Shown here: positions 30,640 through 41,856 of the stretch, in pieces | Layout: each line of letters starts with the position of its first letter | Numbering within the stretch: position 1 is the first letter of the stretch | Origin: Pontibacter sp. G13 | Lineage (GTDB): Bacteria > Bacteroidota > Bacteroidia > J057 | Direction of reading: 5' to 3' | Length of the DNA stretch: 64,000 nt | Assembly (NCBI RefSeq): GCF_031851795.1 | Contig: NZ_CP134696.1 | Span: forward strand, 1,483,576 to 1,547,575 | The notes under the pieces: model-generated | The model's input: the letters and a program-made list of their open reading frames with translations, nothing else | The model's database searches: none | Told to the model about the DNA's origin: nothing | Program-made: the position numbers and the translations under genes

Positions 30640-31749
30640 CTACACCTGAATGCTGGAGACGTATTTCCGGAAAACTGGCTCCATTCGCTCCGATGCGTCG
30701 ATGAGAAATTCAATCATGGAAGGCCAATCTTCTCGGTTGAAAATGTTGACCTGATTTAATTGAAGCCTGATTCTGGAGGCTGTTTTAGTATCTAGCCGTT
30801 CCCAATCCAAACTACTCCCAATCGCGCCCTCAATGTCTTCCTTATGAATGAGGAGTTCATCAAAAATTAGCTTATTCTCCTCCTGCTTGGCTCGACTCAG
30901 ATACAGTTCAGCCCTACAGGTTGTCTTTGTCACAACTAGGTTCAAGGAGACACCCGTCTTTCCCAAGCCAGAAGAAATCCAATTGTCTCGCGAGGCAGAT
31001 ATGTTTTGGAATAGGGTAGTCCTAGAGTCGCATACCTCAAAGAATTTTTGCCAAAACTCATACCTGATCTGCTTCCCACGCTTGGCGGTCTCTTGGGTAG
31101 AAATTTCATTCTCCGACTTCCGGGCCATTCCGATCATGAAATCTTCCGTATCCGGCACAGGCAAAATTTGGTTCATATCCAGAAACAGATGCTCGCCAAG
31201 CCTGTAAGGCGTCGCCTTGAAGCACTGGACCCGCAGGTTGAAATTCATCAGCCACAGCACCAGGCTCGTAACCTCTTTGCGAAATTTCCCCGCCACCAAC
31301 ATAATCCGCTGGGTACTGCCCGGATTCAAGATCAGTTCCTCGAAATCTTGCCCATTCAAAAATTCCGAGAGGTTTTCCTCGGCACTTCCGCCCTGACGCG
31401 TCTTGTTCAGGTAGTGTTGGTAGATTTCGCGGATTTGCTCTTTGGTCAATTCGGCACAATAGGAGGCGTATTTCATCGCCTGCCACGTGACATCGCGGCC
31501 GCTGTCGTCTAGTTTATTTTCGATGATGACCAGGCTCCCCTGCTTGTCCAAGGCCAGCAAATCCAATCGCTCCCGCGTATCGTCGAATCCGTCAAATTCC
31601 TTCTGGATGATCAGGAGTTCCTCGCCCAAGGCTTCGGGATGACCGGCGAGCCACTCTTGCAAATGCTCGCGTTCGCGGAAACCCAGCTCGGAGAAAGTGG
31701 GCTGGTGGAGTTTGGTGAGGGAGTTGGAGTTGGGGTCGATGTGATACAT
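30640..31749 (-). CDS. DUF4268 protein with NucS-like PD-(D/E)xK nuclease domain
   Basis: A 369-residue protein. The N-terminal third carries a nuclease-type motif, RERLDLLALDKQGSLVIIENK, with the D...ExK spacing of the PD-(D/E)xK superfamily and similarity to NucS/endonuclease domains (WLAGHPEALGEELLIIQKEFDGF before it). The C-terminal half (WQKFFEVCDSRTTLFQNISASRDNWISSGLG...RAELYLSR) is the DUF4268 domain. Such proteins are frequent in defence islands, often beside restriction systems. It is on the same strand as the hsd genes and starts 63 bases after hsdR, so it may be the last gene of that operon. Its base composition is closer to the host than that of hsdR. Confidence 0.85.
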   Translation of the reverse strand: MYHIDPNSNSLTKLHQPTFSELGFREREHLQEWLAGHPEALGEELLIIQKEFDGFDDTRERLDLLALDKQGSLVIIENKLDDSGRDVTWQAMKYASYCAELTKEQIREIYQHYLNKTRQGGSAEENLSEFLNGQDFEELILNPGSTQRIMLVAGKFRKEVTSLVLWLMNFNLRVQCFKATPYRLGEHLFLDMNQILPVPDTEDFMIGMARKSENEISTQETAKRGKQIRYEFWQKFFEVCDSRTTLFQNISASRDNWISSGLGKTGVSLNLVVTKTTCRAELYLSRAKQEENKLIFDELLIHKEDIEGAIGSSLDWERLDTKTASRIRLQLNQVNIFNREDWPSMIEFLIDASERMEPVFRKYVSSIQV

Positions 31750-31812: not shown

Positions 31813-34779
31813 TTAATAATACTCTTTTATATATGCATAAGCCCGATCAAACAAGACCTGATCCTTGTGCAATTTATATTTCAATAATTGCTTTCTAAGT
31901 GACTTCTGCACCTCACGTTCACCAGCATTGGTTTGCTGCCAACCAGGGAAGCTCACTACTCTTACTATAGCGTCAATATCATTTACGATTCGTTCTACCA
32001 CAGCAGGTGTTTCGTCTGTTTTTAGCTCCAAAAACAAATCTGATAGAGCAGTCTTTGGTGATTTTTCTTCAAATAACTCTACTAATTCTTTTTCTGCTTG
32101 GACCGTCTCTTTCGCTATTTTACAGAGCTCTTTTACGAATTCAATGGATGTGATTAATCCTCTTTCGGCTTTGTCTCGAAGGGCTTCCAATCGTTCGCTT
32201 AGCTTCTTAAATATTGGATTTTGACCATGTTTTTTGAAACGCTTGACCAAAATCTTTTCTAATTGCTTAGCGCTTTTAGGGTCTGGATTATTGAAAATGT
32301 CTTCTATCACATCTGCATCTAAGACAAACTCTTCCAATTGATGCACGTCTCCTACATGAACATTTTCGTGAATCAACTTGGTGGTTTGGGCCCCTAGCGA
32401 GAACCATAAGAGCTTTCCAATATTATCAGATGCTGGTTTAACTGATTCAAACACTTGAGAAAGCCATTTATAGTCTGCATAATACACATCCAAGATATTG
32501 TCCGGTGATAACGACTCCCAAAGCTTTGAAAGGTATTTATAGTCCTTGGCAAAGGCATCTTTGGCTTCATCTGTTTTGATCGCGTTTTGAGCTGCTTCCA
32601 ATCCTTCAAAACCATCTAATGTTCTATCTACGCCTTCAAAATGGCTCAATGCATCTTTCATGGCTTTAGGCAACTTTCCTCTTAGTTCAGAAAGGTTTGA
32701 TATTACTTGCTTAACAGACTCCTCATCAAATTGCAAGGCTTTTACAGCATCATCAAATACACCAAAATAATCTACGATTCTCCCAAAAGTTTTATCTGGA
32801 TATAATCTGTTGGTTCTACATATGGCTTGCAACAATGTGTGGTCTCTTAATGACTTGTCTAAGTACATGGTTTGTAGGACAGGAGCATCAAAACCAGTCA
32901 ATAACTTTGCTGTAACTATAATGAACTTGGTAACAGAAGAAGGGTCACTGAATTTCTCTACAATCTTTTCCTGCTGACTCTTATCAACGCCCCATTTTTG
33001 TTTGAATTCAAAGTCGTCATTGGCAGAAGTGGACATGACCACCACGCTAGCTTCTTCAGGGTAGTATTTATCTAGTTCTTCCTTGTATTGCACACATGCA
33101 TAACGATCCGGTGTTACAATCATGGCTTTGAAACCATGAGGCTCTACTTTTTCTTTGAAGTGATTGGCAATGTCCTCAACTATTTTAGAAACACGTTCTG
33201 GTGATTTCAAGAAGGCCGCCATTTTAGCCGACTTTTGATTCAAAGCATCTGCATCTTCATCTGATAAAGCGGTACTTTCCTTGAATTCCGCCATGGCTTT
33301 ATCGATGGTTTCTGTATCTACATGAACATCGACTAACCTTGGCTCGAAATGTAATGGTAAGGTTGCACCATCGCGAATAGAATCATGAAAGGTGTATCGT
33401 GACATGTAGCCACCTTCATCTTCTTCAGATCCAAAAGCCCAAAAGGTGTTCTTGTCTGCTTTATTTACAGGTGTTCCTGTTAGTCCGAATAGGAAGGCAT
33501 TTGGCAAGGCAGCGCGCATGGTACGGCCTAAATCTCCTTCTTGTGTTCTGTGCGCTTCATCTACCAATACAATCACATTATCACGCGTATTCATATTGGG
33601 TTTGGCATCACGGAACTTATGAATCATGGAAATGATAATCTTCCGTGTATCTCTTTCCAATAAAGTTTGTAATTCGCTGATACTATCCGTGCTGACTACA
33701 TTGGCGACATCGGCAGCATCAAATGTGCCTGATATTTGTGTATCTAAATCCGTACGGTCGACCAAAACAATAACAGTAGGGCTTTTTAACTCCGGTTCCC
33801 GTCTTAATTTCCGGGCTGCAAAGACAATTAGGAAAGATTTTCCTGAACCTTGAAAATGCCAAATCAATCCCTTCTTAATACGCCCTTCCTTTACACGTTC
33901 TACAATTTTATTTGCACCCTCATACTGCTGAAAACGCGGAATAATTTTAATTCTGCGTTTCTTTTTATCCGTTGAGAACAAAGAGAAATTCTGCATAATA
34001 TCCAGCAAACGAGCTGGACTTAATAAATCAGACAATTCCTTTCCGACTTCTGAAAGACCTAAACGTTTTGCAATGGTATCTTCAGCATTTTCTAAACGCC
34101 AAGGTGCCCAAAATTCTAATGGACATCGAACTGCACCATAGTACAATTCCTTTCCTTCTGTGGCGAAAGACAGAATGTTAGGCACAAATAGTTGCGGCAC
34201 CGCATTTTCATAAATTTCATGTACTTCATAAGCTCCATCTAACCAACTTACTGAAGGACGTATGGGGGTTTTAGCTTCACCAACAACCACAGGAATTCCA
34301 TTGATCATCATGACGATATCTGGAATTTTGGTTTCTCTATGATGAATGCGGTATTGATTGGTAACTACATAGATATTGTTGGATAAATCTTCAAAGTCTA
34401 TAAGGTGAACAGGCACATGACGGTTGTTCTCTCCAAAAGGCATGGTTTTTTCGCCAGTCATCCACTTGAAAAACTCTTCATTGGCTTTGACCAACCCCAC
34501 TTGGTTTACAGCAATTAATACTGCCCTGAGTTTATATATGACCTCATCGGCCAATTCTGGTTTCGCAGCAATGGCTGGGTTTAAGCGAATGAGTGCTTCT
34601 TTAAGCTCAGACTCTACCAAAACTTCATTTACACCACGTTGTATTTCATCTGAAGATTTATACACCCACTGTGCACCATAACCAGCTTTTGGTTCATTGG
34701 TTTCATTGTTATTTAGATTCACCCCACTGAGTTGGTGGATGATGTAGTATTCTACGCTGTTTAGTTCTGTAAATCCCAT
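31813..34779 (-). CDS. hsdR: Type I restriction enzyme, HsdR subunit
   Basis: A 988-residue restriction and translocation subunit. An N-terminal PD-(D/E)xK nuclease is visible (IPDIVMMINGIPVVVGEAKTP, ExK motif). The SF2 motor follows: Walker A in FQGSGKSFLIVFAARKL, motif II LVDEAHRTQ, motif III FLFGLTGTPV, and motif VI around QAICRTNRLYP. The C-terminal helical region binds the HsdM2S core. The gene starts three bases after the nucleotidyltransferase stop, so it should be translated from the toxin/antitoxin-like operon's mRNA as well as from any upstream hsd transcript. The DNA is AT-rich, unlike the flanking host genes. Confidence 0.95.
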   Translation of the reverse strand: MGFTELNSVEYYIIHQLSGVNLNNNETNEPKAGYGAQWVYKSSDEIQRGVNEVLVESELKEALIRLNPAIAAKPELADEVIYKLRAVLIAVNQVGLVKANEEFFKWMTGEKTMPFGENNRHVPVHLIDFEDLSNNIYVVTNQYRIHHRETKIPDIVMMINGIPVVVGEAKTPIRPSVSWLDGAYEVHEIYENAVPQLFVPNILSFATEGKELYYGAVRCPLEFWAPWRLENAEDTIAKRLGLSEVGKELSDLLSPARLLDIMQNFSLFSTDKKKRRIKIIPRFQQYEGANKIVERVKEGRIKKGLIWHFQGSGKSFLIVFAARKLRREPELKSPTVIVLVDRTDLDTQISGTFDAADVANVVSTDSISELQTLLERDTRKIIISMIHKFRDAKPNMNTRDNVIVLVDEAHRTQEGDLGRTMRAALPNAFLFGLTGTPVNKADKNTFWAFGSEEDEGGYMSRYTFHDSIRDGATLPLHFEPRLVDVHVDTETIDKAMAEFKESTALSDEDADALNQKSAKMAAFLKSPERVSKIVEDIANHFKEKVEPHGFKAMIVTPDRYACVQYKEELDKYYPEEASVVVMSTSANDDFEFKQKWGVDKSQQEKIVEKFSDPSSVTKFIIVTAKLLTGFDAPVLQTMYLDKSLRDHTLLQAICRTNRLYPDKTFGRIVDYFGVFDDAVKALQFDEESVKQVISNLSELRGKLPKAMKDALSHFEGVDRTLDGFEGLEAAQNAIKTDEAKDAFAKDYKYLSKLWESLSPDNILDVYYADYKWLSQVFESVKPASDNIGKLLWFSLGAQTTKLIHENVHVGDVHQLEEFVLDADVIEDIFNNPDPKSAKQLEKILVKRFKKHGQNPIFKKLSERLEALRDKAERGLITSIEFVKELCKIAKETVQAEKELVELFEEKSPKTALSDLFLELKTDETPAVVERIVNDIDAIVRVVSFPGWQQTNAGEREVQKSLRKQLLKYKLHKDQVLFDRAYAYIKEYY

Positions 34780-34782
34780 AGC

Positions 34783-35469
34783 TTAGCTGTTTAGTATTTG
34801 GGTGATTTTTTCTTCTACGATAGGTAATCGTTCGTCTAACATTAATGGGTGGATATGTGCCATTAAGACTTCTTGCATTAAGCCTTTCTTGCCAATGATT
34901 TGTAATTCCGTTTTTAAAAAACTTATAATGCGTTCATCATCATTTGCAATTTCTTCTGCGATGTTTATACGGTTATCCAACACATAAACAATGTCTTCAA
35001 TATCATGACTGGTTCGATAATCTGATCCTCTATCCTTAAAAGCTTCAAATTTGGTGGCTAAATAACAAGGCGCCGATAATATGTTTATCTCTTGATCTTT
35101 TGCTTTTGCTGTCCACAGCTTTTCAAAACCAATTTTGTACCAACGGTTGGCCGGCCCCAGAGGACCATCTTCGGTAGCCATAATATCTACCGGAATATCT
35201 TTGTATTTGTAACTGCAAATGGCATGGCCATGAGGATCGGGATGAAAGCCTAGTGCTCCTAATTGTGCCTGTACCTTTTCCCAATGATGCAGGTTTACAA
35301 TATTCAAGGTCATATCAATATCTTGTGTAGGACGAATTTCATCGGCAGCTGGGTCGTCTGTATACAAACTTACCACAGCACCACCAACAAACACCATCTC
35401 CTGCTTAATCTCTTGAAGCGCCTCTGCTACTTCAGCTACTACGGCAATATTGATGGTTCTATTCTCCAA
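34783..35469 (-). CDS. Nucleotidyltransferase, probable toxin of a toxin/antitoxin-like pair
   Basis: A 228-residue protein with the minimal nucleotidyltransferase signature: a GG pair in MVFVGGAVVSLYTDD and, after a normal spacing, the D-x-D pair in TQDIDMTLNIV. HxxxIPVDIM and a helical C-terminal half follow. Enzymes of this type move a nucleotide onto protein or RNA, and include AbiEii/MNT toxins. It overlaps the upstream winged-helix gene by 11 bases and is followed after three bases by hsdR. The toxin role is inferred from the fold and pairing; the sequence does not prove it. Confidence 0.78.
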   Translation of the reverse strand: MENRTINIAVVAEVAEALQEIKQEMVFVGGAVVSLYTDDPAADEIRPTQDIDMTLNIVNLHHWEKVQAQLGALGFHPDPHGHAICSYKYKDIPVDIMATEDGPLGPANRWYKIGFEKLWTAKAKDQEINILSAPCYLATKFEAFKDRGSDYRTSHDIEDIVYVLDNRINIAEEIANDDERIISFLKTELQIIGKKGLMQEVLMAHIHPLMLDERLPIVEEKITQILNS

Positions 35470-35983
35470 GGGCTAATCGCATTTTTAGGTCTGCAATGGC
35501 TAATTCTTTTTCTCTTGCCCTGCCTACACGCACAGCATCTACCAAAGCCAACAATTCATGTAAATTAGCATCTTTTAGAGCAGCTTCAGGCACGGAGGGA
35601 TACAAAGGTACGATACTATGTCCTCTCACACTTCCTTTACCATAAGGCCAAACATATGCTTCTGTACTTTGAATTTGTTCCTTTAAAGGACTTGCTGAAT
35701 GCGATGTAGGTACACCTCGAACCACAGGTCCTGGTTTTTGAGGAAATACATAACGCAAACCATATTGTAAAAACTCAAACAAAGCCATTCGCATCACTGT
35801 TTTTCCGTTAGGTGCTAATAGCCCTGCGTATTTTGATCGATTTAATGATTTGCTTATCTCTGATTGGCTAATGCCCAATGCCTCGGCCAGTGGTTTTTGA
35901 AACCAAGGTTCGTTACCGTAACTCACTATTTTTAGTAGAATGACGATATCATGCGGGCTCATTATTTGCTGTTTCCCCTTCAT
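35459..35983 (-). CDS. Winged-helix regulator, probable antitoxin partner
   Basis: A 174-residue protein with an N-terminal winged helix-turn-helix (ILLKIVSYGNEPWFQKPLAEALGISQSEISKSLNRSKYAGLL). The middle has a conserved-looking GPVVRGVPTSHSASPL stretch with YVWPYGKGSVRGHSI, and the tail is helical. It overlaps the nucleotidyltransferase gene by 11 bases, the arrangement of AbiEi/AbiEii-like pairs. Two near-identical palindromes lie just upstream (35984-36009 and 36050-36075), suggesting autoregulation. A second possible start is Met8 at 35962, which would move the first palindrome off the coding start. Confidence 0.75.
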   Translation of the reverse strand: MKGKQQIMSPHDIVILLKIVSYGNEPWFQKPLAEALGISQSEISKSLNRSKYAGLLAPNGKTVMRMALFEFLQYGLRYVFPQKPGPVVRGVPTSHSASPLKEQIQSTEAYVWPYGKGSVRGHSIVPLYPSVPEAALKDANLHELLALVDAVRVGRAREKELAIADLKMRLALGE

Positions 35984-38797: not shown

Positions 38798-40279
38798 CTA
38801 TATAAATTCCTTTAGAATCATTTTGAACTTTTCTTCAGCTTCCAAACTATCGTTCCAAGCTTGTTTCAAATCCGCTAATGCCTCCTCCACACTTGGTAGA
38901 TTGTCCTCAATAATCTTCTCTACATACAAAGGGATATTGAGGTTGAAATCGTTTTCTACTAAATCCGCTTTAGAAGCTACCTTTACATAGTTCTCCACAT
39001 CTTCAAAAGCATTGTACCAATCAAAAATTTGATTCACATGCTCTGGTTTGAGGTGGTTCTGCGCTCTACCCACACGTATCTGGTCTGAAGCATCAATAAA
39101 TAAGACTTTCTCTTTTTTGCTAGCTTCTTTTTCTTTTTTGAAGACCATTACGCAAGCTGCTAGTTGTGTGCCGTAAAAGATATTGGGACCTAGACCTATT
39201 ACCGCCTCTAGTATATCTTGCTCTAGTAAAGCTTTTCTAATTTTTCCCTCAGCGCCTTTTCTAAACAATGCTCCATGCGGTAGCACTACCGTCATTCTTC
39301 CAGAATCGTTCATGGATTTAATCATGTGCTGTACCCAAGCCATGTCACCGTTCCCTTTAGGTGGAACACCAGCAATATTTCTTCCATAAGGATCATTGGT
39401 CCAGTTTTCGGCTCCCCATTCTTTTAGCGAGAAAGGCGGGTTTGCAATCACACAATCAAACGTTTTCAATCCATCTGCCTCAAAAAAGGCAGGATTTCTA
39501 AGGGTGTCTCCTCGTTGAATTTGAAAGTCTTCAATTCCGTGTAAGAACATGTTCATTCTGGCAATGGAGCTTGAAGTCAAATTCTTCTCTTGCCCAAAAA
39601 GCTTTAGTGTCCTATAATCTTCCTTGGCATCTTTTAAATGATCTACGCATTCCAGTAGCATTCCACCAGTACCGCAAGCAGGATCATAAATAGTTTCCCC
39701 CTCATGAGGGTCAAGGATTAGCCCTAACAAATGAACTACTGAACGCGGGGTATAAAATTCTCCTGCTTTTTTATTGGTTAAATCTGCAAAATGCTTGATT
39801 AAGTATTCGTAAGAATTACCAAGCAGGTCAGCATCTACATTGCTATTGCATAAATCATATTGAGAGAAATGCTCGATTAGGTCAACCAGCAATCTATCCG
39901 ATAACTTATTCTTATTGCTCCATTGTGCATCTCCAAAAATGCCATACAAGAATTCTTGATTTGCTTGTTCAATTCCTCTTAGGGCTTGTTCAATAGCTAA
40001 CCCCATATTGGTTGTTGTCTCACGCACATCTTTCCAATGGCACTCCTCTGGAATAACAAAGCGGTGAAATTCTGGAAGATTGGCGTATTCTACATCTCCA
40101 TCAGATTCCTCCAGCGCCATCTGATACTCTTCATCGTATACATCCGATATTCTTTTAAAGAAAAGTAATGGAAAAATGTACACCTTAAAATCCGAAGCGT
40201 CTACTGGACCTTTTAGAATCCAGGCAGCCTTGGAGAGGTATTGCTCTAATTGTGATAATGTAATTTTTTCTTTTTTCAT
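38798..40279 (-). CDS. hsdM: Type I DNA methyltransferase subunit HsdM (first copy)
   Basis: A 493-residue HsdM. The same N-terminal domain (YLSKAAWILKGPVDASDFKVYIFPLLFFKRISDVYDEE) is followed by motif I (IYDPACGTGGMLL) and motif IV with a Phe variant (VIANPPFSLKEWGAENW). NPPF is a normal alternative to NPPY in this family. The open frame extends 11 codons upstream, but the ATG at 40279 (MKKEKITLSQLEQYL) matches the family and sits four bases after the stop of the disrupted regulator. Both HsdM copies look intact, so the locus could build an M1-M2-S complex or one copy may be redundant. Confidence 0.93.
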   Translation of the reverse strand: MKKEKITLSQLEQYLSKAAWILKGPVDASDFKVYIFPLLFFKRISDVYDEEYQMALEESDGDVEYANLPEFHRFVIPEECHWKDVRETTTNMGLAIEQALRGIEQANQEFLYGIFGDAQWSNKNKLSDRLLVDLIEHFSQYDLCNSNVDADLLGNSYEYLIKHFADLTNKKAGEFYTPRSVVHLLGLILDPHEGETIYDPACGTGGMLLECVDHLKDAKEDYRTLKLFGQEKNLTSSSIARMNMFLHGIEDFQIQRGDTLRNPAFFEADGLKTFDCVIANPPFSLKEWGAENWTNDPYGRNIAGVPPKGNGDMAWVQHMIKSMNDSGRMTVVLPHGALFRKGAEGKIRKALLEQDILEAVIGLGPNIFYGTQLAACVMVFKKEKEASKKEKVLFIDASDQIRVGRAQNHLKPEHVNQIFDWYNAFEDVENYVKVASKADLVENDFNLNIPLYVEKIIEDNLPSVEEALADLKQAWNDSLEAEEKFKMILKEFI

Positions 40280-40283
40280 TGTC

Positions 40284-40472
40284 TTATGTCGGCATAATAA
40301 ATTCACGCACATTTACCTCTAGAATACGTGCGATTTCATTCAGTACTTCCAAGCGCGGCTGGTGTCTATTTTGTACATCAGCATTCACCAAGTTGTAGCT
40401 CTTTCTTAGTTTTTCAGCTAAAAAAGTCTGCTAGATTCCTTTTTCTTCTAGTACTTTTCTTAATTCTGTCAT
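40284..40472 (-). pseudogene. XRE-type helix-turn-helix regulator interrupted by an amber codon
   Basis: Translating 40472 down to 40284 gives a 62-codon XRE-like protein: MTELRKVLEEKGI, then TAG at 40433-40431 (codon 14), then QTFLAEKLRKSYNLVNADVQ and RLEVLNEIARILEVNVREFIMPT. The part after the stop is a typical lambda-repressor-type HTH, and family members normally have Lys at the stop position (one base from AAG to TAG). It lies directly before the first hsdM with a four-base gap, where such leader regulators commonly control restriction operons. As written it cannot make a complete domain unless the amber codon is read through. Confidence 0.8.
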
Positions 40473-40857
40473 TTAGTTTCAGAATTGGAAAGGATAAATT
40501 TAAGAATTTAGATTTAATATATCGTATTTCGTGATTTAAAACGCTTGAAATACCTAGTAGGATGGTGTTGGGGAAGTGAAAGCTCGTTTGCTGCGGAGAC
40601 ACTGAGCAGAAAATTTGCTTGAACATGGGATTGGGTTTTTACTGGAATGGCATACAACGGTTTGGCTATATGCAGTGCCACGTAAGGCATTGTGTAATAG
40701 GTTTTGTTAGCCACCGCTTTATTTATTCCTATTTGAAGGACTCCATCCCCCCTACCCCTACATAGGCTCATACTTCAACACCACCTCATCCTCCAATTCC
40801 TAATCTTCACTCAAAAGCGGCAGATTTTCCCTCTGAAAAAATGAGGGGATTGAGAAT
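40473..40857. other. Intergenic region upstream of the hsd operon
   Basis: 385 bases, very AT-rich near 40480-40560 where the hsd promoter should lie; no clear TAnnTTTG box was found. The part 40645-40725 contains GCATACAACGGTTTGGCTAT, a later GGCATTGTGTAATAGG and TTGTTAGCC. This reminds me of one arm of a Bacteroidota intergenic cassette element, but the matching second arm is missing. No gene is supported. Confidence 0.4.
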
Positions 40858-41856
40858 TCATTCTTCCTCTTTTATGAGGATGCCATGCTTGAGGCAATAC
40901 GCCTCGATCTTATCACTATCCTTCAAGAAAGGATCACAAAATTTCCCAAATGCCTCTTCTTCATATTTGAGTTGCCGACCTTCCACATCGAGTAGTTGGG
41001 CTGAGAAATCCAGAAACTCTCGGAAGCCTTCATTCACATGGCAGATCTTGTCCATCGTGGTTGGGTCCAGGTCGCGATAGGATGCGGGAAACAAGATCTC
41101 AGAGGTGAATACGTCTGCACTCAGCTGAATAACGCCAATTCCGAAGGAGCGATTGAGGCGCTCCAATTCCGGCAAGATGCTGGAAGCAAAGTCAAAGGCG
41201 ACCAAATAGCCGAAATTGGCCCAGCTGGAATTGGAGACTGCCTGAAAGTAATATTGCTTGAGTTCGGAATCTGTTTGGATTTCCTTCTTGATTTCGTAGG
41301 AAGAAAGATTGAGGAGGCTGGAAGGATCGGTAGACTTTAGAAACTTGCGGGAGCTTTTGTGCTTGAGGTCCAGAAACTGAACACCCACCATATCCGGATG
41401 AATCCACTTCTGGTTGCGATCCCGGCTGTTTCTCGACGTCTCGTGCAGAATGGTTTTGGACTTGATCTCCCGAGTTTCCAAAAAGGAACTGAGCAAGAGA
41501 TGCAGGTCTCTTTCCTTGTAGGAGGGTAGCGATTGAGGCTTTATTCCGTTTTTCTCTGCTTCCCCTAAATCTGATTCTCCGCTACTGACTTTCTCGCTGA
41601 TTTCCTTGTTTTGTGTGAGGTAGTATCTCAACTTCTTGTCACTTCCTTTAAATCGAGAAACTCTACTATCCTTGTTTCGAATAAATTCTCCCAATAATGC
41701 AGAAACGGTAGCCATTGGGGTTTTGGCTAATCCGAAATCATAATACCCGTTCGCCATTATATGATCAAAGACCTGCTTGTAGGTCATCGGATTGTTGGTA
41801 TCCTGCAGGGATCTCAGCGCAGCTTCTTTGATGGTTTTGGGTTGTGGAATGGCCAT
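40858..41856 (-). CDS. HARE-HTH plus PD-(D/E)xK-like protein (HrgA/COG2958 type)
   Basis: A 332-residue protein. The N terminus is a HARE-HTH/HB1 winged helix (TIKEAALRSLQDTNNPMTYKQVFDHIMANGYYDFGLAKTPMATVSALLGEFIRNKDSRV), a domain found in restriction and chromatin proteins. The middle to C-terminal part has a nuclease-like pattern: HPDMVGVQFLDL, then LSSYEIKKEIQTD with an ExK motif, then ASSILPELERLNRSFGIGVIQL. This is the arrangement of HrgA-type proteins associated with restriction systems. It lies upstream of the hsd operon on the same strand but with a 385-base gap, so it has its own promoter. Confidence 0.78.
   Translation of the reverse strand: MAIPQPKTIKEAALRSLQDTNNPMTYKQVFDHIMANGYYDFGLAKTPMATVSALLGEFIRNKDSRVSRFKGSDKKLRYYLTQNKEISEKVSSGESDLGEAEKNGIKPQSLPSYKERDLHLLLSSFLETREIKSKTILHETSRNSRDRNQKWIHPDMVGVQFLDLKHKSSRKFLKSTDPSSLLNLSSYEIKKEIQTDSELKQYYFQAVSNSSWANFGYLVAFDFASSILPELERLNRSFGIGVIQLSADVFTSEILFPASYRDLDPTTMDKICHVNEGFREFLDFSAQLLDVEGRQLKYEEEAFGKFCDPFLKDSDKIEAYCLKHGILIKEEE

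Follow-up and report, generated by a model that had tools for sequence, protein, structure and literature searches.

Introduction

The first gene of a type I restriction operon in enteropathogenic Escherichia coli encodes RptR, a small protein that is conserved together with its site across genomes and that represses its own promoter, where palindromes lie near the −10 box, as shown experimentally (PMC12255303). It has 79 residues, a fold other than XRE and a 6-bp palindrome, TAGCTA, and is found in Gammaproteobacteria, mainly with type I systems (PMC12255303). The C proteins of type II restriction-modification (R-M) systems (PMC3115060) and HsdC of Mollicutes (PMC5282649) are also small helix-turn-helix (HTH) proteins that are encoded within the operon and act on their own promoter, with the C-box and GTGTTA direct repeats, respectively, as binding sites. 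BrxR and related WYL regulators form one family found beside many defence systems, and are WYL-domain proteins with a ligand-sensing domain (PMC9122601, PMC9122589). Among the operons themselves, PacII-type type I R-M systems pair m6A and m4C methylases, and the part of their description available to us gives no leader regulator (PMC9613975).

Here we describe the leader gene of a type I R-M operon in a 64,000-nucleotide stretch of the genome of Pontibacter sp. G13 (hereafter the window). In contrast to RptR, the leader belongs to a family of canonical XRE proteins in Bacteroidota with a 19- to 21-bp dyad and many defence types behind it; the leader itself is XRE by Pfam rather than RptR-like, and no TAGCTA occurs in its upstream sequence. 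Unlike the WYL regulators, it is a bare HTH of about 60 residues. The C proteins and HsdC are tied to R-M and differ in their sites, whereas this family, whose action on its own promoter is predicted, also heads BREX, argonaute-type and Tmt operons. By sequence, the family profile matches CylR2 and the solved XRE structures 3bs3 and 3omt. CylR2 is a 66-residue dimeric repressor, which controls cytolysin genes, and 3bs3 and 3omt are uncharacterised. Among open-licence papers we found no published account of an XRE-and-operator leader module before Bacteroidota defence operons, although such a search is weak evidence. We propose, with a probability of about 0.77, that a mobile leader module, made up of an XRE gene and a palindromic operator, has decayed at this locus, where control has been lost and the operon has stayed open.

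Results

The operon behind the leader consists of the following genes:

38798–40279, minus strand: hsdM1, with AGEF and NPPF motifs, m6A type (motifs as in PMC9613975)
37330–38796, minus strand: hsdM2, with AAEF and NPPY motifs, m4C type (motifs as in PMC9613975)
36101–37330, minus strand: hsdS
35459–35983, minus strand: 174-residue protein with no Pfam match, a possible antitoxin-like partner to judge by its position
34783–35469, minus strand: AbiEii-like nucleotidyltransferase
31813–34779, minus strand: hsdR

The motifs of the two M subunits are those that define PacII-type m6A/m4C type I R-M systems (PMC9613975), and place the operon among them, its methylation being predicted from the motifs. 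Of 80 related loci, 71 have an M1–M2 pair, and the two genes are often separated by additional DNA. The AbiEii-like gene and its 174-residue partner, between hsdS and hsdR, are possibly a toxin–antitoxin pair nested in the operon. Strong purifying selection acts on hsdM1, the hsdM2, hsdS and hsdR frames are open, and the defence genes still look functional. The operon lies on an island with a G+C content of 0.35–0.43, compared with 0.48–0.55 elsewhere in the window (near 0.52), which suggests horizontal arrival. A search of plasmid DNA matched only distant hsdM genes. After hsdR, at the island end, lies a gene for a 369-residue DUF4268 protein (30640–31749), and a 332-residue HARE-HTH protein is encoded on the same strand upstream of the leader (40858–41856), also within the low-G+C island.

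The leader and its main lesions are as follows:

40284–40472, minus strand: XRE leader gene remnant of 62 codons, aligned with 25 intact relatives
40431–40433, minus strand: in-frame TAG at codon 14, Lys in most relatives and AAG in L059
40455–40469, minus strand: codons 2–6, with an apparent frame shift and its restoration, from nucleotide alignments against L059 and L033

L059, the closest leader, comes from Flavobacteriaceae bacterium RhTr2. The frame runs from an ATG at 40472 to a TAA at 40286–40284, four bases before the hsdM ATG at 40279. Re-reading confirmed the preliminary description in its coordinates, in the TAG at codon 14 (40433–40431), in the four-base gap and, for the most part, in the Lys that it ascribed to relatives at this codon. 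An in-frame ATG at 40312 was also considered as the hsdM start and was rejected because L059 stops soon after it in that frame. When read with an X at the stop, the leader frame matched Pfam HTH_26 and HTH_3 above their cut-offs, and is therefore a true relic of the XRE (Cro/C1-type HTH) family rather than a chance frame. As a family sequence directly before a defence gene, the window copy takes the place of a Bacteroidota XRE defence leader, and it lacks the intact reading frame of that family owing to the TAG and further lesions. No second family member was found in the host genome, where the next best match had an E-value of 0.67, so there is none that could act in trans. Among the 80 closest hsdM relatives, this leader precedes only two, and such operons therefore do well without it.

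The intact relatives form a family of about 60 residues in Bacteroidota that heads many types of defence operon. Searches with the window protein detected family members in 27 of 395 genomes sampled across the phylum, and a profile search (E 1e-12) detected them in 74 of 395 genomes from the class. We took the DNA behind more than 50 leaders for neighbour analysis, and in nearly all cases a codirectional, usually large gene starts within about 50 nucleotides of where the XRE match ends. Among 49 leading genes scanned, 15 matched N6_Mtase, 13 HsdM_N, 8 N6_N4_Mtase, 6 HSDR_N, 4 the EcoP15I C-terminal domain and 2 C5 methylases, with single cases of MmeI, MazG, Schlafen-type, GmrSD, DUF4062 and AAA ATPase genes. 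PADLOC models at the leaders included BrxC, TmtA, PDC-M11A, SspE/HEC-06-like, argonaute-associated and DpdF-like proteins and type IIG enzymes. The systems headed by leaders thus span type I, III, IIG, MmeI and C5 R-M, BREX, argonaute-type, Tmt and other defence. Leaders lie directly before type I systems on plasmids of Segatella hominis and Bacteroides uniformis, and on a viral contig (L303) one precedes DNA-methylase-like and helicase-like genes that by eye resemble a type III pair.

Upstream of the leaders, mostly 43–48 nucleotides before the ATG, is a palindrome close to TATCTCA-N5-TGAGATA, which scored at least 11 of 14 in 33 of 55 leaders and at least 12 in 21 of 55. In dinucleotide-shuffled upstream sequences about 1% reach 11 and nearly 0% reach 12, a comparison that is not fully independent because an earlier upstream set, which overlaps with this one, had served for deriving the consensus by eye; the negative control is independent. 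No operator was found upstream of 76 of the 77 close hsdM relatives that lack an XRE gene, the remaining locus scoring 11, and the mean best score at these 77 loci was 8.40, compared with 8.45 in shuffles. Bacteroidota promoters have a −7 box with the consensus TAnnTTTG, and where leaders have a recognisable box of this kind, the operator mostly sits about 14–17 nucleotides 5′ of it. The corresponding elements in the window are:

40518–40538, minus strand: putative operator TAAATCA-N7-CGATATA, dyad 5/7, from comparison of the dyad with L059
40495–40502, minus strand: putative −7 promoter box TAAATTTA (TAAATTAG in L059), from sequence and spacing

The window upstream region scores 10 of 14 against TATCTCA-N5-TGAGATA, in the expected place, and the closest homologue has the variant spacing, TATATCA-N7-TGATATA, with a dyad of 7/7. 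Compared with L059, the window dyad thus appears to be eroding, from 7/7 to 5/7.

The leader gene had been described as intact except for the TAG and as broken by this single amber codon. This description does not survive alignment. Against both L059 and L033, codons 2–6 are best explained by two one-base indels, a deletion and an insertion that together restore the frame. In 25 intact relatives, 35 alignment columns reach a conservation of at least 90%; the window differs at nine of these, not counting the stop (N2T, R3E, I4L, K5R, W17F, G23R, M28L, Y32D and L58F), compared with none in L059 and at most three in any intact relative. Relative-rate counts assign 9–13 private amino acid changes in XRE to the window line and 0–2 to L059, depending on the outgroup, compared with 11–15 and 5–10 in hsdM across eight times the length. 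In the Nei-Gojobori comparison with L059, XRE has a dN of 0.133, a dS of 0.334 and a dN/dS of 0.40, which is a rough value from 61 codons but stands in large contrast to hsdM (dN 0.037, dS 1.68, dN/dS 0.02) and points to relaxed selection. As to the proposed check against close relatives, for AAG at codon 14 or for an equally degraded frame, L059 reads AAG and its frame is not degraded. Judged from its sequence, the leader is a decaying pseudogene of an ordinary kind, in which the amber codon is one sign of a wider decay. Between the window and L059, 30 of 189 bases differ in the XRE frame, which is too few for a gene dead since the lineages split, so that either the loss is recent or some constraint was kept; the decay is probably recent. 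L059 is the only close homologue found, and most changes are dated against this single neighbour. An indel pair that exactly restores the frame would be a coincidence in a neutral relic, and counts mildly against the decay reading.

Discussion

Family, position, shared operator and decay can be read from the DNA, and from these we infer XRE binding and negative autoregulation. An intact XRE dimer would bind the operator, which lies a short distance 5′ of the −7 box, and restrain its own operon, as other small leader regulators do; the leader position together with the palindrome suggests such negative autoregulation by analogy with RptR (PMC12255303). The operon would have arrived in Pontibacter on the low-G+C island. 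There the leader would have lost its coding function through the TAG, the apparent double indel and changes at conserved residues, and the operator dyad would have started to erode. The same promoter probably still drives both methylase genes, hsdS and hsdR, now with no XRE to control it. The idea in the preliminary description that a leader regulator has been lost is supported, with relatives that keep the operator and the position in the operon, and its attribution of the loss to one codon is not. That the loss frees the operon presupposes repression, which is itself our deduction.

The opposite sign of control must be weighed. XRE could be an activator that works like a C protein from a site near −35, in which case its loss would have reduced or abolished expression of the restriction operon instead of releasing it. 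The distance of 14–17 nucleotides between operator and −7 box in most leaders with a box is a place that would allow activation, and by eye the leader upstream sequences contain no obvious TTTG −33 element. Against activation, an operator over −33 usually represses, 77 close hsdM relatives manage without XRE, and in the window hsdM1 remains under strong purifying selection with hsdM2, hsdS and hsdR open. We consider activation unlikely, and repression remains the preferred reading.

The remaining alternatives concern the stop codon itself. A sequencing or assembly error at the TAG is very improbable: the codon is a base substitution in a three-contig assembly, and the same 189 bases hold many independent substitutions and the apparent double indel next to a clean hsdM. 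The suggestion that amber readthrough might tune the operon, by setting the amount of XRE, finds some encouragement in the remaining frame, which is open to its natural stop, and in the CAG directly after the TAG. A TAG followed by CAG is part of a known leaky context. Nevertheless, the release factor RF1 is present in the genome (prfA, E 3.6e-149), the amber at codon 14 occurs in no relative found, and residues at invariant positions behind the stop have decayed too. The search for an amber suppressor tRNA that had been proposed found no CTA or TTA anticodon among 63 tRNAs read by ARAGORN (64 RF00005 matches), with 150 of 320 first-look candidates scored and one partial match (L221) giving no tRNA call. 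A pattern search, for which the RF00005 and ARAGORN analysis is the better test, matched less often than its reversed control and turned up no CTA-anticodon tRNA. The leader thus has neither a conserved stop with a conserved downstream frame nor a suppressor tRNA among those read to indicate programmed readthrough, which we regard as extremely improbable. It is scarcely credible that translation restarts after the TAG, at the in-frame TTG and GTG of codons 28–29, and yields a regulator that is diverging but still works, because from the HTH alignment this product would begin inside the recognition helix and lack the first two helices.

Decay of a leader is not confined to the window. The other leaders with stops or frameshifts number at least seven, in six genomes (G212, G112, G131, G304, G162 and two in G405), although several of these assemblies are drafts and may have introduced some of the breaks. 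In the four loci checked (G212, G112, G304 and G162), the next gene is open, indicating that leader loss is recurrent and survivable, and a Pfam-complete hsdR lies behind the broken leaders of G112, G304 and G162. In G405, the two broken leaders lie about 3.5 kb apart on one contig (L291), each before a type III mod-like gene.

A broken gene is ordinary, and the family behind it is the more interesting result. One control cassette of XRE and operator may have been shuffled before unrelated anti-phage systems across Bacteroidota and repeatedly discarded once settled, the window holding a copy in the course of being lost; we give this broader proposal even odds. The combination of XRE and operator offers a sequence tag for finding new Bacteroidota defence operons, and raises the question of whether leaders serve as a brake while an operon enters a new host and can afterwards be dispensed with. 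A different small gene occupies the position before hsdM in five loci that lack XRE, mostly from Proteobacteria (L090, L094, L113, L121 and L135), where an excisionase-like HTH (ILTLKEVAxYLKLAEKTAYRLA) is encoded just before hsdM.
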